Source: a virus
DNA length: 22,070 nucleotides
Reading direction: 5' to 3' (one strand)
Virus record (IMG/VR): IMGVR_UViG_3300027759_000468
Span: 1 to 22,070 of that record
Numbering within the stretch: position 1 is the stretch's first letter; every line of letters begins with the position of its first letter. The translations under genes were made by a program, and so were the position numbers. The notes under the pieces were generated by a model that saw nothing but the letters and a program-made list of their open reading frames with translations, was not told the origin of the DNA and ran no database searches. Below are positions 5,505 through 22,070 of this stretch, piece by piece.

Positions 5505-6635
5505 ATGGGTCAATTTAAACCAATGGTCAAGATGGAGACCACCGAGCCCTCAGTTGAGCTGAAACTCAAAAAGGGTGGCAAGGTAGTCAAGAAGGCTGAC
5601 GGAGGCATGATGGGCTCGCCCATGAGCGCCGCTGGCCCTATGCCCCCTGCAATGCCTGCTCGTGGCGGCATGATAGGTGCCAACGCGCCCATGCGTCCGC
5701 CTCTGGCCATGCGTCGGCGTGCCATGCGCGGCCTACCGTCCGGTGCCGGTCCGGCCGGTCCGATTGGTGGCGCTGCTCAAATGCAACCCTCAATGCCGTC
5801 GTCAATGCCAACTCCTCCTGTCACGTCCGCCCCGATGAAAAAAGGTGGCAAAGCTGAAGGCGGCATGGAATCAAAATCCGATCAGCGCAAAGAAGAGAAA
5901 ATGGACACGGCTCAAGATAAAGCCATGCTCAAGAAAGCTTTTAAACAGCACGACATGCAAGAGCACAAGGGCGGCAAAGGCACTTCACTCAAGCTGAAGC
6001 ACGGCGGCAAGATGGCCACTGGTGGCGTAGTCAACGGCCAAGGCGGTTTTGCTACCGGCGGTGTGGTCAATGGCCAAGGCGGTTTTGCCACTGGTGGCGT
6101 TGCCAAGTCCAATGCGGGCGGTTACAAACGCGGCGGCAAAATTAAAGGCATGATGGGTGGCGGCATGGCCGGCGATGGCATGATGGGCGGCGGGATGATG
6201 GATGATGGCATGATGAATAACAGCATGTCTGCCGCTTACAAAAAAGGTGGTGCCACAAAAAAAGCCTACGCGGCGGGCGGGACTGTTAACTCAGGCCGTC
6301 CCGTCGCGATGCCTCAAGGCAACAAACGGCCTTCGCCGCCCGTGAGAATTGACCAATTGTCCGGGACTTTTAAACGTGGTGGCACGGTAAAAATGAATGG
6401 CGGCGGCTCTTCCTCTGAAAAGTTGGAAGACATGTCCAAAGGCGCTTATGACAAAGCGCCAAAGTACAGCCGTGACGTTGAGGATGCGCTGAACCCGTTG
6501 GGCATGGTGAAAGAACTTGCTAGTAAAGCAAAAAACTTTTTCATTCCCAAAAAGACTGCTGACAGCGTGACTAAGACAAAAGAGTCAGTCACCGTCACTC
6601 CCGCTAAAAAGCGTGGTGGTATGGTGAATTGCTGA
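5505..6635 (+). CDS. Lys/Gly/Met-rich low-complexity protein
   Basis: A 376-residue basic protein with a clear ribosome-binding site (AAAGGAG before 5505). It is made of recurring KKGGK, RGGK, GGMMG and Pro/Met-rich stretches: residues 28-60 and 100-125 carry KKGGK-type motifs, residues 60-110 are Pro/Met/Ala-rich, residues 170-200 hold a tandem ATGGVVNGQGGF repeat, and residues 210-240 are Met/Gly/Asp-rich. The last 90 residues are more ordinary, with SSEKLEDMSKGAYDKAPKYS and a helical stretch near DALNPLGMVKELASKAKNFF. Most of the chain is probably disordered. Abundant Lys and Gly suggest a nucleic-acid or capsid-interior contact, but this is inference. It is followed by a terminator, so it ends a transcription unit. 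Confidence 0.65.
   Translation: MGQFKPMVKMETTEPSVELKLKKGGKVVKKADGGMMGSPMSAAGPMPPAMPARGGMIGANAPMRPPLAMRRRAMRGLPSGAGPAGPIGGAAQMQPSMPSSMPTPPVTSAPMKKGGKAEGGMESKSDQRKEEKMDTAQDKAMLKKAFKQHDMQEHKGGKGTSLKLKHGGKMATGGVVNGQGGFATGGVVNGQGGFATGGVAKSNAGGYKRGGKIKGMMGGGMAGDGMMGGGMMDDGMMNNSMSAAYKKGGATKKAYAAGGTVNSGRPVAMPQGNKRPSPPVRIDQLSGTFKRGGTVKMNGGGSSSEKLEDMSKGAYDKAPKYSRDVEDALNPLGMVKELASKAKNFFIPKKTADSVTKTKESVTVTPAKKRGGMVNC
6015..6104 (+). repeat. 36-nt in-frame tandem repeat (about 2.5 copies)
   Basis: Two full 36-nt units (6015-6050 and 6051-6086), each coding ATGGVVNGQGGF, are followed by a partial third (ATGGVAK). The first two differ only at third codon positions, so the amino-acid unit is kept exactly while the DNA has begun to diverge. 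The repeat is in the reading frame of the Lys/Gly-rich gene. Confidence 0.9.
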
Positions 6636-8053: not shown

Positions 8054-9115
8054 ATGGCGTACTCAGGATCTGTAGGTACAACCGTCATAACGGTCCAAAC
8101 GCTGATTGATCACGGCGCACGTCGCTGCGGCAAGCTGGCCGAAGAGCTGACATCCGAGCAGGTCTTAAGCTCCCGCGAGTCGTTGTTTTTCCTATTGTCC
8201 AATCTGATCAACATTGGCATCCAGTATTGGGCCATCAGCAAAAAGGTCTACGGCTTCTCGCCTGACCGCGCAACCTACCTGCTTCCTTTGGGGGGTAATG
8301 ACGTTCTCAATGCCCTGTACCGCTGGATGAACCGTCCTGACGGCAGCTACACAACTTCGGCCGGCGGAACAGTTGGCAACGTCTATGACGGTGACGTGGA
8401 CACGGTCTGCACCCAGACCTCGGCTAACGGCAACATCGCTGTCAACTTTGGCCCGTCCAACCCAATTTTTATTGGCTCCATTGGGTTCCTGCCGGCCTCC
8501 AGCGGCACAAAATCATTCATCCTTGAATACTCGCTTGACAACGTGACTTGGGCAACCTTGGTTGATCTTGGGTCCATTACCGTGGTTGACAACGAGTGGA
8601 TCTGGACCGACATTGTCAATGGCCAGACCGTGCCGTACTACCGCATCCGGGCCTACAGCGGGACCATTTTGAGCCTGCGTGAGTTGTATTTTGGCAACAA
8701 CAGCACCGAGATCACCATGTCGCGTTTGAACCGAGACGACTACACCAACCTGCCCAACAAGAACTTTACAGCTAACCAGCCGTTTCAGTTTTGGTTCAAC
8801 CGAACCATTCCGCAGAGCGAGATCGTGCTTTGGCCAACGCCCCAGAACGCCTTCTACCAGATGGTTGTTTGGTACTCGCGCCAGATAATGGACGTGGGCG
8901 ACCTGTACGGCGAGCTAGAGGTCCCACAGCGCTGGTACGAGGCCGTGGTGATGATGCTGGCTCACCGGATGAGCCTTGAGCTTCCCGGCGTGGACATGGG
9001 CCGCATTCAGTACCTAGAGGGTCAGGCGGCAAAGTACCTTGCCATGGCCGAGGAAGAGGAGCGGGATCGGTCGCCGATTTACTTTGCTCCGAATATTTCC
9101 CCGTATACAAGGTGA
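8054..9115 (+). CDS. Head-tail adaptor-like protein with inserted discoidin-like domain
   Basis: A 353-residue protein whose core is split. Residues 1-96 form a helical region (TLIDHGARRCGKLAEELTSE then LFFLLSNLINIGIQYWAI) typical of head-tail adaptor (connector) proteins of podoviruses. Residues 217-353 resume with RLNRDDYTNLPNKNF, the strands around IVLWPTPQNAFYQMVVWYS and a helical end (PQRWYEAVVMMLAHRM). Between them, residues 97-216 form a jelly-roll-like domain with an F5/8 type C (discoidin) pattern: a VYDGDVDTVCTQ motif, the FILEYSLDNVTWATL strand pair and a closing YYRIRAY...LSLRELYFG strand. Such domains usually bind carbohydrate or other surface ligands. The second half resembles the protein at 15086, suggesting the two are paralogues. 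Family assignment is by pattern, not by search. Confidence 0.65.
   Translation: MAYSGSVGTTVITVQTLIDHGARRCGKLAEELTSEQVLSSRESLFFLLSNLINIGIQYWAISKKVYGFSPDRATYLLPLGGNDVLNALYRWMNRPDGSYTTSAGGTVGNVYDGDVDTVCTQTSANGNIAVNFGPSNPIFIGSIGFLPASSGTKSFILEYSLDNVTWATLVDLGSITVVDNEWIWTDIVNGQTVPYYRIRAYSGTILSLRELYFGNNSTEITMSRLNRDDYTNLPNKNFTANQPFQFWFNRTIPQSEIVLWPTPQNAFYQMVVWYSRQIMDVGDLYGELEVPQRWYEAVVMMLAHRMSLELPGVDMGRIQYLEGQAAKYLAMAEEEERDRSPIYFAPNISPYTR
8342..8701 (+). other. Discoidin (F5/8 type C)-like domain insertion
   Basis: Codes for residues 97-216 of the adaptor-like protein. The order VYDGDxDT, a hydrophobic I-x-V-N-F-G strand, SIGFLP, L-E-Y-S-x-D-N-V-x-W and Y-x-R-I-R...L-R-E-L-Y-F follows the usual discoidin strand order, in which a sample of the type N-A-x-D-G-D-x-x-T opens and an R-E-I/L-x strand closes. 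The flanking sequence on each side reads as the two halves of one adaptor domain. Confidence 0.55.
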
Positions 9116-11280: not shown

Positions 11281-13242
11281 ATGGCTCAGACAAACTACAC
11301 ACCCATATCGCTTTACTACAGCCCAACTGCGGCGGCAGCGCCGTCTGCTGGCAATCTTGTTGCTGGCGAGTTGGCGCTCAATACCCTTGACGAAAAACTG
11401 TACTTCAAGAATAGCGCAGGCACGGTCAAGTTGTTGGCATCCAACGCCTCATCTTCTGGAACTGTTTCAAGCGTAGCCGCTTCTGTTCCTGCTTTCTTGT
11501 CAGTTGCAGGTTCGCCTATCACCACAAGCGGTACGCTTGCCATTACCTACTCTGGCACGGCACTTCCCGTCGCAAACGGCGGCACAGGGCTGACCACAAC
11601 CCCTGCAAACGGCGCTTTAAATATTGGTAACGGCACAGGCTTTACCCGTACCACATTGACCGCTGGAACAGGCATATCTATTACCAACGGTGCTGGTTCT
11701 ATTTCGATTGCTTCAACAGCATCAGTATCTGCCGCCACTCCGACTGCGCTGGGTACTGTTTATGCGAATACTAGCGGTAGTTCTCCTTATATTGCATTTT
11801 TAGGTTATCAGGCAGGTAATTCCAATACAGGACAATACAATTCATTTGTTGGTGTTCAAGCAGGCTATTCAAATACTAGTGGCGGTAATAATTCCTATAT
11901 AGGTGCTAATGCCGGAAATAATTCTACAACTGCAATTAGAAATACTGCAATTGGCTCGCAATCTTTTTATGGCAATACTACCGGCAGTGGTAATACCACT
12001 TTGGGCTATAGTGCTGGTCTTAACGTCACAACTGGAGATAATAATATCTTGGTTGGGAATCAAGCGGGTAATAGTGCTATTATTACCGGATCAAATAATA
12101 TTTGTATTGGATATGGTTCTAGTTTATCTTCGGGTTCTGTTAGCAACGAATTCACGCACGGCAACTCATCCATTACCAGCAACAGGTTCTGGGGTGATAT
12201 GCAGATGGGCGGCTCGTCCGCTGGTACATCTGGTCAGGTGCTGACATCGGCTGGTGCTGGGGTTGCACCTACATGGGCAGCGGTGTCCGCATCTGCCGCT
12301 ACCCCGACTACTTTGGGTACTGTGTATGGAAAAACATCTAATGGGCTTAGTATCGTAGCATTAGGACAAAATGCTGGAGCAAACGCTACTAACTATAATG
12401 GAGCCACAGCCATTGGAGAAAATGCGTATACGAATGGCACTGGCGCAAGAAATACCGCTGTTGGTTACACTGCATTAAATGGCGCGGGTAGTTATGCCCA
12501 ATGTACCGCACTTGGAGAAACGTGTTTACAAGTAAATACGGGGTCAGTTAATACTGGTCTTGGGGCACAAGTTCTTGGTTACAACAGTACAGCAACTAAC
12601 AACTCTGCTGGCGGCGCTAGAGCAATGTTTTTTAATACAACGGGTTCGTATAATACCGCATTTGGAGATAATTCTTTATTTACAAATACTGTGGGCGGTA
12701 GCATTACTGCAATTGGTTCGTATGCTCTATACAACAGTACAGGAAATAACAATACCGCACTAGGCTCTAGTACTGCGTCTACTTTAACAACAGGAACTAA
12801 CAATTCTATTATCGGATGTAACGCAGACGTATCATCTGCCTCCGTAAATAATGAAATTACTCTTGGAAATTCAAGTATTGCTACTTTGCGTTGCCAAGTT
12901 ACATCCATCACATCCTTGTCGGATGCGCGGGATAAAACAAACGTACTCCCTATTGCCGCAGGTTTAGATTTTACCAATCGGCTTAATCCCGTGTCGTTTG
13001 ATTGGAATATGCGGGACGGAGCTAAAGTTGGCGTACCAGACACAGGTTTTATTGCTCAAGATTTAAAGCAAGTGCAAGAGCAAACGGGCATTGAAATACC
13101 CGGACTTGTGTACGAATCAAACCCAGAAAAACTTGAGGCTAGTTACGGCAAATTACTACCCGTAATGGTCAAAGCCATTCAAGAACTGTCTGCAAAGATT
13201 GATGCTTTGCAGGCTGAAATTACTCAACTTAAAGGAGCCTAA
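11281..13242 (+). CDS. Tail fibre protein 2 with C-terminal S74-type chaperone
   Basis: A 653-residue fibre with AAGGA just upstream. The N-terminus holds NLVAGELALNTLDEKLYFKN, an attachment-type segment common in aquatic phage fibres. The middle (about 165-540) is made of G-Y/G-x-A-G-x-x-x-x-x-G-x-x-N-x-x-(I/V)-G beta-helix turns in two related halves. The C-terminal 115 residues are a peptidase S74 / intramolecular chaperone domain: LSDARDKTNVLPI with the Ser547-Lys552 dyad expected for self-cleavage, GLDFTNRLNPVSFDWN, TGFIAQDLKQVQEQ, and a final YGKLLPVMVKAIQELSAKID helix. Such domains trimerise the fibre and then cut themselves off. DNA of the middle is clearly AT-richer than the neighbouring genes, suggesting exchange with other phages. 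Confidence 0.88.
   Translation: MAQTNYTPISLYYSPTAAAAPSAGNLVAGELALNTLDEKLYFKNSAGTVKLLASNASSSGTVSSVAASVPAFLSVAGSPITTSGTLAITYSGTALPVANGGTGLTTTPANGALNIGNGTGFTRTTLTAGTGISITNGAGSISIASTASVSAATPTALGTVYANTSGSSPYIAFLGYQAGNSNTGQYNSFVGVQAGYSNTSGGNNSYIGANAGNNSTTAIRNTAIGSQSFYGNTTGSGNTTLGYSAGLNVTTGDNNILVGNQAGNSAIITGSNNICIGYGSSLSSGSVSNEFTHGNSSITSNRFWGDMQMGGSSAGTSGQVLTSAGAGVAPTWAAVSASAATPTTLGTVYGKTSNGLSIVALGQNAGANATNYNGATAIGENAYTNGTGARNTAVGYTALNGAGSYAQCTALGETCLQVNTGSVNTGLGAQVLGYNSTATNNSAGGARAMFFNTTGSYNTAFGDNSLFTNTVGGSITAIGSYALYNSTGNNNTALGSSTASTLTTGTNNSIIGCNADVSSASVNNEITLGNSSIATLRCQVTSITSLSDARDKTNVLPIAAGLDFTNRLNPVSFDWNMRDGAKVGVPDTGFIAQDLKQVQEQTGIEIPGLVYESNPEKLEASYGKLLPVMVKAIQELSAKIDALQAEITQLKGA
11724..12900 (+). 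repeat. Duplicated, AT-rich beta-helix module within tail fibre 2
   Basis: Two related modules lie at about 11724-12190 and 12285-12900. Each opens with SAATPT(A/T)LGTVY and closes with a SVxNE(F/I)TxGNSSI block. Between are turns of the type GNxNTxxGxxAG. By hand count the line at 11881-11940 is 22/60 GC and 12721-12780 is 25/60, against 37/60 for 8881-8940 in the adaptor gene. Confidence 0.7.
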
Positions 13243-15085: not shown

Positions 15086-15721
15086 ATGACAGTCGCAGCC
15101 GTAATGACGTACGACAGTTTGGTCAATGACATCCAGACCTATCTGGAGCGCACAGATACCCAGACTTTAGACAAAATTCCGCAGTTCATCATGCTGGCAG
15201 AGCAGATTATTGCGGCTGAAATCAAATTTCTTGGCAACTTGACTGTGGCCACAAGCAACATGGTTGCGTCCGAGAACGTAATTCCCAAGCCTGCACGCTG
15301 GCGCAAGACTGTTTCAATGAACGTCACCGTGGCAGGCAAGCGCCAGCCTGTTCTGCTTCGGACCTACGAGTACATCCGCGAGTATTGGCCAGAGGCGGCC
15401 AGCACAGACGTGCCGCTTTATTTTTGCGACTACGACTACCAGCACTGGTTGGTAGGCCCCACCCCCACACTGGCCTACTCTTACGAGGTTCTGTACTACG
15501 AGCGCGTGCAGCCCTTGGACTCATCAAATCAATCGAGCTGGTTCACCCAATACGCCCCACAGGCGCTGCTATATGGCACTTTGCTGCAAGCCATGCCGTT
15601 CCTCAAGAATGACGAGCGCATGCCTATGTGGCAGAGCAATTACGACAAAATCATTGAAGTCCTGAAGACAGAGAACGTCATTCGTGCTGCTGATCGTCAG
15701 GCGATTGTGAGGGATTCATGA
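15086..15721 (+). CDS. Head-tail adaptor-like protein 2
   Basis: A 211-residue protein with GGAG at 15076-15079. It begins with a helical region (TYDSLVNDIQTYLERTDTQT then PQFIMLAEQIIAAEI), has PARWRKTVSMNVTVAGK, YEYIREYWPEA, the strand pair HWLVGPTPTLAYSYEVLYYE and a helical APQALLYGTLLQAMPFL end. This is the pattern of the adaptor proteins of short-tailed phages (for example the SU10-type adaptor and the T7 gp11 fold), which form a ring between portal and nozzle. It is coupled by ATGA to the next tail gene. It shares layout with the second half of the protein at 8054. Which of the two occupies the usual adaptor position cannot be told from the sequence. Confidence 0.75.
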   Translation: MTVAAVMTYDSLVNDIQTYLERTDTQTLDKIPQFIMLAEQIIAAEIKFLGNLTVATSNMVASENVIPKPARWRKTVSMNVTVAGKRQPVLLRTYEYIREYWPEAASTDVPLYFCDYDYQHWLVGPTPTLAYSYEVLYYERVQPLDSSNQSSWFTQYAPQALLYGTLLQAMPFLKNDERMPMWQSNYDKIIEVLKTENVIRAADRQAIVRDS

Positions 15722-17214
15722 GTTTCAATAGCCCATTCACCGGTCAGGTAATCCAGCCGACCGACGTCTCTTACCGAGAGATTACGCTTTCCGCTGACAG
15801 CACCCTGTCGTGGCCAATCAACGGTAGCGTGACGGACAACGCTGCAGCGCGGATCATGAACGTCACGTCGCTCTCTAGCGGCTTGGCGCTTGCCGGGGTC
15901 CTTGTCACAGGCACGGCAGGCCAATGCACTTGCACCACAACTCCCAGCTTGTTTGTTGGTCAAGCGGTTGTTGTTGCCGGGACTCTAACTGGCACGTCAA
16001 CGGGCCTTGTCAGCGGCACCACCTACTACATCATTCTCACCAACGGCTCGACGACTTTCACGCTGTCGGCTACTTTAGGCGGCACGGCGGTGGCCACCAC
16101 CGCTGGATCTACTACCGGGCTGACTTTCACGCTTGACTCGTTCACCTTAGACATGCCGCCTGCAAATCAGGCGTCTGTGGGTATTGATGCCTTGTTCCGC
16201 AACGTCGGGTCTTACAGTTTTGAGGTTAGGGACTATGCTGGCGGCTCAATTGTTACGATCGCGGCCGGCGAGGCCAAGTACATTTACCTGACCACCAACG
16301 CCACCACGGCGGGCACATGGGGCCTCATAGCCTTTGGCGTGGGCACGTCCAACGTTGACGCGGCTACCCTTGCTGGATTTGGCCTCAAGGCTATCTCCAA
16401 CACCTTGAACGCCGCCAATGAGGTCAACACCTTTGCATCAAACTACACCGCGTTGGCCGCAGACCGTGCATCAACCTATGTCTGGACCGGCGGTGCTGGC
16501 ACCTTAACGCTGACATCGGCCGTCACACTGGGCAACGACTGGTACATGATGGTCCGCAACGGCGGGACTGGCACGCTGACCGTTGCGCCATCTGGCGGTG
16601 ACCTGATTAATGGCGCTGCAAATATTTCATTGCAGCCTGCCGATTCTTGTGTGCTTTGCTGCTCCGGCTCTGCCTTCTTTACCGTTGGCTTAGGCCGTAG
16701 CACCCAGTTCAACTTTACTCAGCTCACCAAGGCTGTGGTGACTGGCAGCTACACCCTAACCGCCGCCGAGGCCTCCAATGTAATTCAAAAGTACACCGGG
16801 ACCTTGACGGGCAACGTGACCGTAGTGCTGCCCCAGACGGTGCAGGTGTACTACATCACAAACCAGACCAATGGTGGAGGCCCCGGCTACCAGATCACCT
16901 TTACCACGAGCGGTGGGGGGGCTACGGCAACCGTACCTGCGAGCCAACAGGTGATCCTGCTGTGCGACTCGGTCAACTTGCTCAACGCCTCAACGATCGC
17001 TGCTGGTGCGTCGAATGTGTCTTTGGTGGACGGCACGGTGGGAGCCCCGTCGCTGAACTTTGCAACGGAGACGTCAACAGGCATCTACCGACCCGGCTCT
17101 GGTGAGTTTGGTATTGCAATCTTGGGCGTCAAACTGTTTGGTTTAACGGCTACAGGGCTGAATATTCCCGGCACCGGCAACTTTACTGGGGGTGTTAAGG
17201 GCGGGGTTTTTTGA
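15718..17214 (+). CDS. Beta-rich tail protein with one inserted A-B module
   Basis: A 498-residue protein starting at the ATGA overlap with the adaptor gene and ending in a TGATG overlap with the nozzle-like gene. It begins SFNSPFTGQVIQPTDVSY, continues with beta-rich segments (IDALFRNVGSYSFEVRDYAG, LAADRASTYVWTGGAGTLTL, GSYTLTAAEASNVIQKYTG) and ends in a fibre-like LNIPGTGNFTGGVKGGVF. Residues 60-141 are a repeat module that also occurs in the next gene. Removing them brings together ARIMNVTSLSSG and FTLDMPPANQASVG, which would read as one strand pair. It is probably a tail-tip or nozzle-associated virion protein; no family name can be given with confidence. Confidence 0.7.
   Translation: MSFNSPFTGQVIQPTDVSYREITLSADSTLSWPINGSVTDNAAARIMNVTSLSSGLALAGVLVTGTAGQCTCTTTPSLFVGQAVVVAGTLTGTSTGLVSGTTYYIILTNGSTTFTLSATLGGTAVATTAGSTTGLTFTLDSFTLDMPPANQASVGIDALFRNVGSYSFEVRDYAGGSIVTIAAGEAKYIYLTTNATTAGTWGLIAFGVGTSNVDAATLAGFGLKAISNTLNAANEVNTFASNYTALAADRASTYVWTGGAGTLTLTSAVTLGNDWYMMVRNGGTGTLTVAPSGGDLINGAANISLQPADSCVLCCSGSAFFTVGLGRSTQFNFTQLTKAVVTGSYTLTAAEASNVIQKYTGTLTGNVTVVLPQTVQVYYITNQTNGGGPGYQITFTTSGGGATATVPASQQVILLCDSVNLLNASTIAAGASNVSLVDGTVGAPSLNFATETSTGIYRPGSGEFGIAILGVKLFGLTATGLNIPGTGNFTGGVKGGVF
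15895..16140 (+). repeat. Single A-B composite module
   Basis: An A unit (15895-16020, VTGTAGQCTCTT...GLFVGQ-type, 42 codons with linker) is followed by a B unit (16021-16140, TYYIILTNGSTTFTLSATLG). By hand alignment 53 of 79 residues are identical, without gaps, to the A5-B1 junction at 18285-18530 in the neighbouring gene, and the A-to-B distance (126 nt) is the same. Codons differ widely, so this is not a very recent copy. Confidence 0.9.
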
Positions 17215-20200
17215 TGTCAATTAAAGTCTTTACTCTTGACACAAAGCCGGGCATCCAGCGCGACGGCACGGTGTTTGACATGAGTTTTTACACCGACGGC
17301 GAGTGGGTGCGTTTTCAACGTGGCCGCCCCCGCAAGATTGGTGGCTATCGTGTCATCTCTGACCAGCTTACGGGCCCCTCTCGTGGGATCTGGGTCAACA
17401 CTCAGAACGCCTTCACTTCAATTTTTAGCGGTTACAACGACGGTCTGCAAGTTCTGACCATTGACAACAATGGCGTTGGAGCTGGTGTTGATAACTTTAC
17501 GCTGACCAATTTCACAGCATCTGACTTAAACCTGTGGCAATTTGATGGGTTTTATGACGTTGGTGGTAATGGCATTCAGTCTCTCGTAGCCCACCCCGGT
17601 CTGAACCTTGACTCAATCAGCAATAACATTGATACGCCTGTGCTGATTGGCGATATCAATAACACGACCATGTCCCGAATTGGAGTTTTTACAGATGCCA
17701 ACGCCTACATAAACAGCACAACATCTGTCACCATATCTGAAACAAATACCTTGATTGGCGCTGGCCAGACCGTTACCGGCACAAATATACCGTCTGCGAC
17801 AACAGTTGTTTCCAGCAATCTTGAGTCTCCGAATTTAAGCACGGTTGCAGTAACGGGAACAAGCGGAACCTTTTCTTGTGCGTCAACTTCAGGCCTTTAC
17901 ATCAACCAAACAGTTACCGTTACAGGATCTCTGCCGACAGAAATTTTGTCCACGGTTGCGGTAACTGGGACGGGCGGTACATTTTCTTGCACCGCAACCA
18001 ATGGCTTGTACAGCGGGCAGAAAGTTGTTGTGTCTGGTTCATTGCTCAACACCACCTTAGCGAGTGTTGCAATTACAAGCTCAAGTGGTGCTTTTTCTTG
18101 TACAGCAACAACCGGACTTGCTGTAGGACAGCCTGTAGTTGTTTCTGGATCAATAAGCACAAACACACTTGCAGGTGTTGCAGTTACAAGCGTCAATGGT
18201 GCTTTTTCTTGCACGGCAACAACAGGACTTTACGTAGGTCAGCCAATTACCGTGGGCGGTACACCTACCCCATCAACAGTTGCTGGCGTGGCTGTTACTG
18301 GAACTGCGGGTCAGTGCTCCTGCACAGCTACAACTGGCCTGTACATTGGCCAGCCAGTTTTTGTTTCTGGAACGCTTACTGGAACGGAAACTGGTGTTAA
18401 TGGCAATAGAACTTATTACATCATTGCTACGGATGGGACGTCAACATTTACGCTCTCTTCGGCATTTGGTGGAACAGCCTTAACCACAACAGCGGGAACA
18501 ACCACTGGGCTGACGTTCACGGCAATATTGTCAAGCGGCGTCGCCGCAGGTATCACTTACTACATTATTGCCACCAACGGAACGTCAACATTTACGTTGG
18601 CATCTTCAATAGATGGGGCGGCAATAACAACAAATATTGTTACCTTGGCTGGCTTGACGTTCTCTGGGCCAAATGGAACAGGGCTTGTTTCTGGGGCAAC
18701 TTATTACATTTCCGCCACCAACGGAACATCAACCTTTTCTTTGTCTGCCACCTCTGGTGGATCTTCAATAACAAACACCTTTGGTGCAACCACTGGTTTG
18801 TCATTTGTATTCACGCCATTTCCGGGCGTTATCACCGGAACAACGTATTACATCATTGCAACCAACGGCACGTCAACATTTACGTTGTCTGCCACATCTG
18901 GTGGATCAGCAATTACAACAATAGTCACCAGCACCAACAATTTGGTGTTTACGGTACAAAAATATATTGGTCTTTCTGCTGGAAGCACTTACTACATCAT
19001 TGCCACCAACTACGCGACAACATTTACCTTGTCAGCAACGTCTGGTGGAGGCGCAATATCCACAATCGTTGCGGCAACAACTGGGTTTGTTTTTACGCTT
19101 GGCTCTTATCAAAAAGTGGTGTTGTCCGCTGCGGCAACAGCAAGCGGCCCGGTGACGCTGACTTTTGACAACAACATATCAGTCTCTGGCGGACTTGTTG
19201 CGCTGCACCCTTACCTATTCGTGTACGGCAACAATGGTCTGATTCAGAACTGTTCGGCCGGCAACCCCAGCGACTGGGTCTCTGCCGACGCCAATGCGAC
19301 CAACGTGGCCTCCGGCAAGATTGTCCAAGGACTACCCGTCAGGGGCGGCTCAAACGCGCCTTCTGGGCTGTTCTGGAGCCTTGACAGCCTAATCCGCGTG
19401 TCATTCATTGGCGGCACGGGGACGCCGGCTCAATACTGGCGCTACGACATCATCAGCAGCCAGTCCTCAATCCTGTCTTCTCAGTCGGCAATTGAGTACG
19501 ACGGCGTCTATTACTGGTGCGGCGTGGACCGCTTCCTGCTGTACAACGGTGTGGTCAAGGAGATCCCCAACAGCATGAACCAGAACTACTTCTTTGACAA
19601 CCTGAACTACGACCAGCGTCAGAAGGTTTGGGTGACAAAAGTTCCGCGCTACGGCGAGGTCTGGTGGTTCTACCCTCGTGGCGATGCAACCGAATGCACT
19701 GACGCCATCATCTACAACGTGCGAGAGAACATTTGGTACGACGCGGGCGAGGCTCGCGGTGCCCAGCGCTCTGCCGGGTACTTCTCGCAGGTGTTTGCCT
19801 TCCCCGTGGCTGCTGACTGGCACGCCAGTGAAGCTAAAACCGTGTTTACTGATACTTTTAACACGGTGTCTGGCAGCGTTTTCCTCTATAGCGACACCTA
19901 CAACACGCAAGTTGCGATTGGCCAAGTTATCACCGGCACCAACATCCCGGCAAACACGACCGTGGTCGCAATTACGACCAGCAACATCAAGACGCTTGGA
20001 GCAATCACCGGAGGCTCAGGCTACGTCAATGCGACTTACACCAATGTAACCCTCACAGGAGGGTCAGGACTGGGCGCTAAGGCCACGATTGTTGTTTCTG
20101 GGGGGGCAGTGACCACCGTGACCGTTACGGCCCGTGGAGCGGGTTATTTGGTAGGCAATGCCCTGAGCGCCACGGCAGCCAGTTTGGGCGGCGCGGGGGC

Positions 20201-20714
20201 TGGGTTTTCCATTCCTGTGTCGGCCATCTACCTTCAGGCTATTGAAATGTCGGCGGCGGCTACGGGCACGGGTGCGGTGTCATTGACCTTTTCAATCCCG
20301 GCTGACCGCATTGCCATATACCAACATGAAATTGGCACAGACGAGATTGATGGCCAGAACGTGTTGGCCATCCCCAGCTCGTTTGAGACCAATGACCTTG
20401 GCTGGGTCTCTGGCGGCCCGTCCCTACCGGCCACAGAAGGCCAAAACCGCTGGATCCGACTTGATCGGGTTGAACCTGATTTCATCCAATCCGGTGAAAT
20501 GTCGGTCATTGTGACCGGACGCCCATTTGCTCAGAGCGAGGACAAGGAGTCCGACCCTTACGTTTTTGGTCCCAACAACGGCAAAATTGACATGCGCGAG
20601 CAGCGCCGGGAACTGCGACTTAGGTTTACCTCTGACGTAGCCGGGGGGAATTACCAGCTTGGCAAGATCTTGCTTAGTGCCGAGATCGGCGACTCGAGGC
20701 CATATGGCTCTTAA
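17214..20714 (+). CDS. Large tail nozzle / stabilisation-like protein with nested repeat insertions
   Basis: A 1166-residue protein with ATG at 17214 (TGATG overlap). Residues 1-163 are a conserved-looking core (TKPGIQRDGTVFDMSFYTDG, EWVRFQRGRPRKIGGY) and residues 653-884 carry propeller-like strands (SAIEYDGVYYWCGVDRFLLY, KVWVTKVPRYGEVWWFYPRG, IIYNVRENIWYDAGEARGAQ). This resembles the P22 gp10 / T7 gp12-like nozzle proteins that close the tail and hold the DNA in. Inserted are five 37-residue A units (210-399, with the last linker), five 48-residue B units (400-631) and, near residues 884-1029, a second insertion. The C-terminal part resumes with SSFETNDLGWVSGGPSLP and ends with REQRRELRLRFTSD...GDSRPYGS. 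The insertions make it about twice the length of a simple nozzle protein. The core assignment is by pattern and position. Confidence 0.65.
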   Translation: MSIKVFTLDTKPGIQRDGTVFDMSFYTDGEWVRFQRGRPRKIGGYRVISDQLTGPSRGIWVNTQNAFTSIFSGYNDGLQVLTIDNNGVGAGVDNFTLTNFTASDLNLWQFDGFYDVGGNGIQSLVAHPGLNLDSISNNIDTPVLIGDINNTTMSRIGVFTDANAYINSTTSVTISETNTLIGAGQTVTGTNIPSATTVVSSNLESPNLSTVAVTGTSGTFSCASTSGLYINQTVTVTGSLPTEILSTVAVTGTGGTFSCTATNGLYSGQKVVVSGSLLNTTLASVAITSSSGAFSCTATTGLAVGQPVVVSGSISTNTLAGVAVTSVNGAFSCTATTGLYVGQPITVGGTPTPSTVAGVAVTGTAGQCSCTATTGLYIGQPVFVSGTLTGTETGVNGNRTYYIIATDGTSTFTLSSAFGGTALTTTAGTTTGLTFTAILSSGVAAGITYYIIATNGTSTFTLASSIDGAAITTNIVTLAGLTFSGPNGTGLVSGATYYISATNGTSTFSLSATSGGSSITNTFGATTGLSFVFTPFPGVITGTTYYIIATNGTSTFTLSATSGGSAITTIVTSTNNLVFTVQKYIGLSAGSTYYIIATNYATTFTLSATSGGGAISTIVAATTGFVFTLGSYQKVVLSAAATASGPVTLTFDNNISVSGGLVALHPYLFVYGNNGLIQNCSAGNPSDWVSADANATNVASGKIVQGLPVRGGSNAPSGLFWSLDSLIRVSFIGGTGTPAQYWRYDIISSQSSILSSQSAIEYDGVYYWCGVDRFLLYNGVVKEIPNSMNQNYFFDNLNYDQRQKVWVTKVPRYGEVWWFYPRGDATECTDAIIYNVRENIWYDAGEARGAQRSAGYFSQVFAFPVAADWHASEAKTVFTDTFNTVSGSVFLYSDTYNTQVAIGQVITGTNIPANTTVVAITTSNIKTLGAITGGSGYVNATYTNVTLTGGSGLGAKATIVVSGGAVTTVTVTARGAGYLVGNALSATAASLGGAGAGFSIPVSAIYLQAIEMSAAATGTGAVSLTFSIPADRIAIYQHEIGTDEIDGQNVLAIPSSFETNDLGWVSGGPSLPATEGQNRWIRLDRVEPDFIQSGEMSVIVTGRPFAQSEDKESDPYVFGPNNGKIDMREQRRELRLRFTSDVAGGNYQLGKILLSAEIGDSRPYGS
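17706..17819 (+). repeat. First half of split module C1 in the nozzle-like gene
   Basis: Codes for STTSVTISETN...GAGQTVTGTNIPSATTVVSS. The same pattern (GQVITGTNIPANTTVV) occurs at 19920. The expected completing strand is not adjacent; it appears at 19107, after the A and B arrays. Confidence 0.6.
17841..18410 (+). repeat. Five tandem A units, exact 111-nt period
   Basis: Units start at 17841, 17952, 18063, 18174 and 18285, each exactly 111 nt (37 codons) apart; the fifth runs on for five more codons to the first B unit at 18411. Consensus: V-A-(V/I)-T-(G/S)-x-x-G-x-F/C-S-C-(T/A)-A/S-T-x-G-L-Y-x-(G)-Q-x-V-x-V-x-G-(S/T). The Ser-Cys pair, the Gly-Leu turn and the G-Q-x-V strand are kept, while synonymous sites differ greatly among copies. 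Confidence 0.93.
18411..19106 (+). repeat. Five tandem B units, exact 144-nt period
   Basis: Units start at 18411, 18555, 18699, 18843 and 18987, each exactly 144 nt (48 codons) apart. The fifth is 40 codons, then the C1 completing strand begins. Consensus: T-Y-Y-I-I-A-T-N-G-T-S-T-F-T-L-S-A-T-S-G-G, then a Thr-rich strand and T-T-G-L-x-F-T, with a linker of the type GxxxG before the next unit. Confidence 0.93.
19107..19170 (+). repeat. Second half of split module C1
   Basis: Codes for YQKVVLSAAATASGPVTLTFDN. The same strand pattern (IEMSAAATGTGAVSLTFS) closes the second split module at 20238-20295. The first half of C1 is at 17706-17819, so about 1.29 kb of repeat units lie inside the module. 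Confidence 0.6.
19869..19985 (+). repeat. First half of split module C2
   Basis: Codes for SGSVFLYSDTYNTQVAIGQV...ITGTNIPANTTVVAITTSN, equivalent to the C1 first half. The same point after T-T-V-V is where an unrelated-looking insert begins. Confidence 0.6.
19986..20228 (+). repeat. Module D inserted inside C2 (Gly-rich beta)
   Basis: Codes for IKTLGAITGGSGYVNATYTN, then VTLTGGSGLGAKATIVVSGG, AVTTVTVTARGAGYLVGNAL and an Ala/Gly-rich close (GAGAGFSIPVSAI). The pattern GGSGY-TLTGGSGxGAxATIxVxGG-VTxVTVTxxGxGYxxGxxL is internally regular and different from units A and B. Confidence 0.6.
20238..20295 (+). repeat. Second half of split module C2
   Basis: Codes for AIEMSAAATGTGAVSLTFS, matching the C1 second half at 19107. 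The distance from the C2 first half is only the length of module D. Confidence 0.6.
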
Positions 20715-20979: not shown

Positions 20980-22070
20980 ATGAATATTTTGGAGTACCGT
21001 CGCAAAGCAGCAGGCCACACCTTTCGTGAAGGTGGTGCCGGGGGTGATTACAGGGACAGTTCCGATGAACTTAGATATGCGCCTCAAGGTCCGACAGCAG
21101 CGCAAATTGCAAAATTAGCAGCACAAGTTGCCGCTAGAAAAAAGGTTGCTGATTTTCTAGGCATTTCTGTTTCAAACGTTTATCCGCAGTTTGGAACAAT
21201 GACTGTTGATGGCCGGGATAGCTCGGTTGAAGTCCCCGACCCCAACAACATCACTGGCTACGCTGTTAAGCATAGCGATACCGTTGGGTTGTTTTTTAAT
21301 GCCGCAGGTGACATAACTGGTACATATCTACCTAAAAAACAATTAAGTGGTTGGGAAGATTTTGGCAATTCTTTGGAAGATATGGCAAAGGCAGGCTTGC
21401 TTGTTCTCGGTGTTGTCAATGGTTTGGGTTGGCTAGCAAACGCTGCGGGCGTTGGCGCTGCGGGGGCTGCGGGGACTGCGGGCGCTGCGGGGACTGCTGG
21501 TTTAGATGCAATAGCAGAGACAATTGCAAACCTCAACACTGGGATAAATACCGCTTCTGCTGTTGCATCGGGACTGACTTTTACGGAAGCGCTGAACAAT
21601 CCCGGTGGAACGCTGGGTAAAGCACTGGGCATTACAAACCCAACATTAGCTAAATTAGCTGGAAATACCATCATTGAAGCCGCAAGAAATGGTGGCGATG
21701 TTGAAACAACAATTAAAAACGTAGCTACAACTTATGGGTTAGACCTTGTCGGATCACAAGTATCTTCTACGGTAAACCAATCTTTACAGGGTGTTGATCT
21801 TCCAGATTTTGTTAAATCAGGAATAACGCAAGGCGTTACTAGTCTTGTAAACGCAGCGTTTACTGATCAAAATCCCCTAAATGCATTGGCTGGCGCTGCA
21901 ATCGGAACAGCAGTAAATGGCATTGCTAATTCCATGCCGGGGTTTAATCAACTACCGCTAGCAGCCCAAAACGTAGCCAGAGCATCTATTGCAGCAGCGT
22001 TAGCCGGCAGAGACGTTACCAACGCAGCTCTGAATGCCGCGCTTGCAGAAGGCAAAAAAGCTGCCGCCAA
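20980..22070 (+). CDS. Ala-rich probable internal virion protein, N-terminal part (3' truncated)
   Basis: An ATG at 20980 opens a frame that remains open to the window end (over 360 codons). It begins MNILEYRRKAAGHTFREGGA, has a charged helical stretch (AAQIAKLAAQVAARKKVADF), a hydrophobic segment near residues 137-155 (GLLVLGVVNGLGWLANAAGV), a collagen-like Gly/Ala run (GAAGAAGTAGAAGTAG) and then a long, repetitive, mostly helical Ala/Asn/Thr-rich chain (NAALNAALAEGKKAAA at the edge). Large Ala-rich proteins after the tail nozzle gene are often ejected internal virion proteins of podoviruses; that reading is inference. No lytic transglycosylase motif is visible in the part shown. No strong ribosome-binding site is seen before the start. 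Confidence 0.6.
   Translation, partial: MNILEYRRKAAGHTFREGGAGGDYRDSSDELRYAPQGPTAAQIAKLAAQVAARKKVADFLGISVSNVYPQFGTMTVDGRDSSVEVPDPNNITGYAVKHSDTVGLFFNAAGDITGTYLPKKQLSGWEDFGNSLEDMAKAGLLVLGVVNGLGWLANAAGVGAAGAAGTAGAAGTAGLDAIAETIANLNTGINTASAVASGLTFTEALNNPGGTLGKALGITNPTLAKLAGNTIIEAARNGGDVETTIKNVATTYGLDLVGSQVSSTVNQSLQGVDLPDFVKSGITQGVTSLVNAAFTDQNPLNALAGAAIGTAVNGIANSMPGFNQLPLAAQNVARASIAAALAGRDVTNAALNAALAEGKKAAA

Follow-up and report, generated by a model that had tools for sequence, protein, structure and literature searches.

How a single phage tail gene comes to carry five repeats of one kind followed by exactly five of another is the question raised by this window, the 22,070-nucleotide stretch of viral DNA analyzed here. 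The answer that we consider very probable is that the two repeat types, A and B, are the halves of one FCCH-like domain nested five deep, in an exchangeable nest that would be a distal extension of the tail nozzle.

A Nozzle-Family Gene With Phased A and B Units

The gene spans positions 17211–20714 on the plus strand and encodes 1167 residues, with ATG at 17214 a likelier start codon than TTG at 17211. Its assignment to the nozzle family draws on the open reading frame and its translation, on its relatives, and on profile matches of its core. A core profile built from relatives without the array (n = 0) matches a solved nozzle, gp16 of Vibrio phage VP1 (8zkk_O; E 2e-10 over 117 profile positions), and also PDB entry 9nwi_Y (E 6.5e-13). 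Two genes upstream lies an SU10-type adaptor gene (15086–15721; Pfam 6.4e-22). The initial annotation, which had described about 420 beta-rich residues in a nozzle-like gene, is right on these points. Elsewhere in the window, positions 8054–9115 encode another protein resembling the SU10 adaptor (E 1.8e-5, narrowly missing the Pfam cut-off), in which a weak F5/8 type C match precedes the adaptor match, possibly another inserted domain. A tail spike or fiber gene at 11281–13242 ends in a C-terminal Peptidase_S74 chaperone domain (1.3e-12), and two further genes contain short in-frame repeats, of 15/30 nt and GGCATGATGGGC type at 6147–6215 and of 9/18 nt and GCTGCGGGG type at 21457–21497.

The array itself consists of five A units of 37 residues (111 nt) followed by five B units of 48 residues (144 nt), all on the plus strand. 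A repeat search placed A-type copies exactly 111 nt apart over 17985–18371, with a 54-nt core in four copies at 61–72% identity and the first A unit evident from the translated sequence, and five B copies exactly 144 nt apart over 18393–19065, at 64–73% identity to the reference copy. Tandem Repeats Finder reported neither array in the window because the copies are too diverged. Profile HMMs recovered the same five A units (scores 62–68) and five B units (69–76), in agreement with the phased arrangement originally noticed. By these two approaches the A units lie at 17835–17945 (A1), 17946–18056 (A2), 18057–18167 (A3), 18168–18278 (A4), and 18279–18389 (A5). The last of these, of AGQCSC type, is the unit most like the A of relatives that have a single AB.

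Divergence of this order, 61–73% DNA identity to the reference copy, indicates that the array is old. Furthermore, when the units are compared with those of diverged five-plus-five relatives, the best match is the unit at the same position in 101 of 150 comparisons for A and 118 of 150 for B, where about 30 would be expected by chance, and the 545-residue block has an identical length in most such relatives. This position-specific identity and constant block length indicate that the register has been held by constraint on the protein rather than by recent duplication, just as had been supposed from the window alone. The units are Thr/Ser/Gly/Ala-rich beta sequences in which no binding site or enzyme motif was identified. 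Congruent with the initial impression of an unnamed repeat, the array had no Pfam match, whether in the window protein or in 95 AB and D sequences searched up to E 1; neither Pfam nor PHROGs supplied a family for AB, and a tblastn search with one AB found no match among annotated phages. Weak matches to DUF5818 and DUF5666 were set aside as chance or as small-barrel resemblance.

The Arrays Obey a Bracket Rule

The key to the arrangement comes from relatives. A scan of viral contigs with the whole protein gave 80 of them, and seven further scans, with other parts of the protein or with relatives as queries, added several hundred loci. The A and B profile HMMs, taken from the window, were rebuilt from all matches without reference to any bracket rule, and every open frame was searched. 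The 83 nozzle proteins gathered first all have n A units followed by n B units, with n = 0, 1, 3, or 5. No relative replaces the array with an unrelated domain of equal length, the case that would have argued against conserved repeats. A restriction to odd depths holds for the main nozzle clade sampled but is not general, since other genes contain A2B2 and A4B4.

The final set comprises 225 distinct intact arrays from contigs of related phages, and 211 of them were read by machine as a balanced string of brackets in which A opens and B closes. Inspected by eye, each of the other 14 proves to have a half that was overlooked, split, or interrupted: a short insertion splits one B (L357–L359); one half of an AB or FCCH-like domain had diverged and escaped the search (L157, L382, L551, L564, L536, L563, and L554); or an AB sits in a second hairpin inside a host B or FCCH-like half, with the host halves flanking the guest (L381, L385, L533, and L534). 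The module therefore has at least two acceptor sites. No confirmed unequal array was found among the 225, whereas low-scoring singleton A or B matches were judged to be chance or D-like (D being the host domain described below). Twelve bracket strings are spread over different genes, with architectures that include AB, A2B2, A3B3, A4B4, A5B5, A6B5ABB, A7B6ABB, and A(AB)(AB)B. The branched strings that appeared as loci were added, namely A6B5ABB, A7B6ABB, AABABB, and AABABABBAB, are each balanced, and within branched arrays the pair of leaf A units are alike, as are the pair of leaf B units. If equal counts are taken as given, nine nested architectures would all be bracket strings by chance with a probability of about 3e-7, the product of 1/(n+1); this figure assumes independent architectures and serves only as a guide because the loci are related.

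Counts that are equal in every intact case, once diverged halves are recognized, and an order that follows the bracket rule imply that A and B are not the two adjacent arrays of separate repeats first described, but two halves of a single domain nested n deep: five in the window and up to seven in relatives, with eight domains in one nozzle clade. By sequence, then, a domain is recursively inserted into its own homolog at more than one level, exemplified by L381, where an AB lies inside an AB with the host halves on either side; structure was predicted for one such level, a single AB in its host domain.

One Domain in Two Halves, and the Hairpins That Receive It

AlphaFold2 modeled the single AB of one relative (L058) within its host domain D from 88 aligned sequences, with a mean pLDDT of 91.5 and a pTM of 0.78; the AB region scores 87–98 by ten-residue block. 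Two long strands, residues 44–60 and 132–144, run from D directly into AB. In this predicted fold, A would supply the first half and B the second half of one small beta domain, about 82 residues long. Its two ends would lie together, making insertion into the hairpin of another domain possible, while its own A/B joint would accept a further copy of AB.

The best PDB fold group for AB (residues 52–138) is the first catalytic cysteine half-domain (FCCH) of E1, with Z 5.6–6.8 over ~75 residues at an rmsd of about 2.6; these scores fall below 8, a range in which a match may reflect only a common arrangement. EF-Tu-like barrels reach Z 5.7. Neither the window protein nor the 95 AB and D sequences matched Pfam E1_FCCH up to E 1, and AB has no E1 context. 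Single matches at Z 5.5–6.6 show a similar fold on phage structural proteins, namely the tail-tube proteins of T1 (9l0f) and FCWL1 (9jlf) and the phi92 endosialidase.

Host domain D flanks the nest in the window. Its first half (IGVFTDANAYINSTTSVTISETNTLIGAGQTVTGTNIPSATTVVS...) occupies 17679–17834 and its second (GSYQKVVLSAAATASGPVTLTFDNN) 19095–19175, both on the plus strand; the latter boundary follows from the n = 0 relatives, the model, and the fold match. D is uninterrupted in nozzle relatives at n = 0. Taken across the insertion, it resembles the Bridgette decoration protein, from an Arthrobacter phage (8eci_1), both by fold, over a discontinuous range (Z 9.5, 30% identity), and by profile (E 0.0028), and is accordingly a Bridgette-type decoration domain. 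Farther along the nozzle gene (19893–20305), a second D-like domain has a similar hairpin interrupted by a different domain rich in GGSGY/GSGYVNGTYTNVTLTGG motifs; this insert is present in all 43 sequences that fit the search pattern, none being empty.

A second acceptor is found in the upstream tail-fiber gene (15718–17214, plus strand), where a single AB module at 15886–16131 sits in a hairpin of the N-terminal domain, ARIMNVT-[AB]-LDMPPANQ, as it does in relatives including L016, L034, and L090. The hairpin is empty in 66 distinct relatives, which have a turn of 8 to about 14 residues, and filled in 36 distinct relatives including the window type, in which ~90 residues hold the AB. The AB-bearing fiber gene co-occurs with nozzle depths 0, 1, and 5.

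Exchange of Depth and the Likely Role at the Tail Tip

Nesting depth differs between close relatives. The nearest core relative of the window (L015; 98% core identity) has one AB where the window has five. By blastn, the two DNAs share 93–94% identity as far as window position 17656 and again from 19134 on; between these flanks, the 1477 nt of the window (17657–19133, plus strand) are replaced by a 463-nt single-AB version with no detectable similarity. Parsimony on the conserved-core tree counts 27 changes of depth, with fewer forced by well-supported branches alone, and arrays of the A3B3 and A5B5 types each descend as a block. From the replacement between the window and L015, depth seems to change mostly through swaps of whole blocks, such that cassettes of depth 0, 1, 3, or 5 would pass intact between phages by recombination.

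What would such a cassette do? In the nozzles of podophages (T7 gp12, P22 gp10, SU10 gp17, and VP1 gp16), distal domains are inserted in a propeller (PMC9509320, PMC6702177). In T7, a loop carries the nozzle tip out of the propeller (PMC6702177); in SU10, the inserted distal domains straighten on infection and extend the tail by ~28 nm (PMC9509320). The SU10 nozzle has four Ig-like domains, whereas this phage family has D with 0 to 7 levels of nested FCCH-like domains. By analogy, D with its nest would be the distal extension of the nozzle, its reach set by depth. D is itself an insertion in the nozzle protein, probably near the site of the distal extension of other podophage nozzles, so that the six copies expected in a virion would build an extension at the tail tip, its length depending on depth. 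Of the two forms originally suggested for the array, a projection fits nesting better than an outer shell does.

A close alternative grants the same architecture but makes the array an adhesion or receptor-binding spike, or an arm on which fibers dock, rather than an element of nozzle length. Exchange of whole cassettes between near-identical phages is usual for modules that contact the host, the adjacent fiber gene has the AB module too, and in SU10 domain 4 of the nozzle contacts the short-fiber dock (PMC9509320); the units, on the other hand, lack a recognizable binding site or enzyme motif and belong to no known ligand family. We regard host contact of this kind as a serious contender, at somewhat below even odds, and keep the nested distal extension as the preferred account.

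Proposed Pairing of the Outer Halves

In the nested order D(A1(A2(A3(A4(A5 B1)B2)B3)B4)B5)D, the innermost A5 pairs with B1, the innermost closing half (TTAGTTTG type; 18390–18518), as A and B do within the one domain of a single-AB relative. The bracket rule would then pair B2 (18519–18662) with A4, B3 (18663–18806) with A3, B4 (18807–18950) with A2, and the outermost B5 (18951–19094) with A1, all on the plus strand. The chain would travel outward along the A halves as far as the innermost domain and come back along the B halves, producing a rod of stacked domains. Suggestive of the A2–B4 pair, both of these units are unusual in the same two relatives (L010 and L100). This case, the bracket grammar, and the single-AB structure are the grounds on which we infer the pairing of A1–A4 with B5–B2.

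Folding the complete A5B5 block with AlphaFold2, on the basis of 15 homologs, gave a poor model (pLDDT 47, pTM 0.34) that was not used for contacts; consequently, no contact between non-adjacent halves was seen. Residual mirror-tree coevolution ranks the bracket pairing first of 6 possibilities for A3B3 and fourth of 120 for A5B5, with no signal in branched arrays of 5–6 sequences. A pairwise coupling model trained on single AB favors the bracket pairing in all nested classes, but once the adjacent leaf pairs are fixed, no significance is left in the combined signal. Because the signal comes from these leaf pairs, coevolution is left out of the support.

It is here that a reading without A+B domains finds its footing: an A stack and a B stack, two independent solenoids set end to end or zipped side by side. 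A units are indeed contiguous with A units and B units with B units, and an A1–B5 contact appears in no model. Such stacks, however, are at odds with counts that are equal at every depth, with branched arrays such as A6B5ABB and A(AB)(AB)B, and with a single AB that folds as one domain in the model and enters the fiber hairpin as a unit, all of which leaves this arrangement improbable. Still more remote, and largely refuted already, is amplification of tandem repeats by unequal crossing-over with equal numbers arising by coincidence or shared descent from few arrays, for although many relatives are close and the A3B3 and A5B5 blocks are inherited whole, crossing-over would alter A and B numbers separately and 0 of the 225 arrays is confirmed unequal. 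A nest of FCCH-like domains is therefore the reading carried forward.

Precedents, Hosts, and Implications

The closest precedent is Si3 of the cyanobacterial RNA polymerase beta′ subunit, in which small beta domains of one family, the HABAS/sandwich-barrel hybrid motif domains, are recursively inserted within each other over six levels, with branch points (PMC13114784; PMC11515920). It is a different protein and probably a different fold. The top matches in the AB fold search are E1 FCCH domains, with no RNAP/HABAS structure among the matches listed, an absence that carries no weight against a shared fold. Si3 types mark deep lineages, whereas the depth of the phage arrays differs between near-identical relatives. 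Compared with Si3, the phage nesting is at least as deep and is branched, its units are regular in length, and the module enters other genes as well. In the open-access literature, no description of nested repeats in phage nozzles was found.

The nested AB arrays belong to a freshwater phage family. The contig of one relative falls in a Limnohabitans bin. The contigs L272, L273, and L274, which carry AB, come from bins assigned to Limnohabitans, a Crenarchaeota-group archaeon, and Chitinophaga; these may be phage contigs, and their bins are weak evidence of host.

A domain nested in its own kind is rare, and the deepest published case found, in the cyanobacterial polymerase, is a fixed feature. 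In these phages, nesting reaches five to seven levels, is branched in some lineages, occurs in several structural genes, and varies between near-identical phages. The natural series of depths 0, 1, 3, and 5 is a resource for studying how such chains fold and how nested domains originate in DNA, and bears equally on whether tail length or host range depends on depth. For annotation there is a caution as well, since neighboring arrays with matching copy numbers, A^nB^n, may represent a nest of domains rather than two repeat arrays. A broader proposal, which we advance tentatively and rate as rather less than an even chance, is that AB is a self-inserting module: from one FCCH-like domain that follows a bracket grammar, phage genes would build branched, tree-like nested proteins whose depth and branching are exchangeable alleles that set the length or shape of the tail tip. 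If true, self-insertion would offer a general route, separate from tandem repeats, by which a rigid rod can be extended from within a fold.
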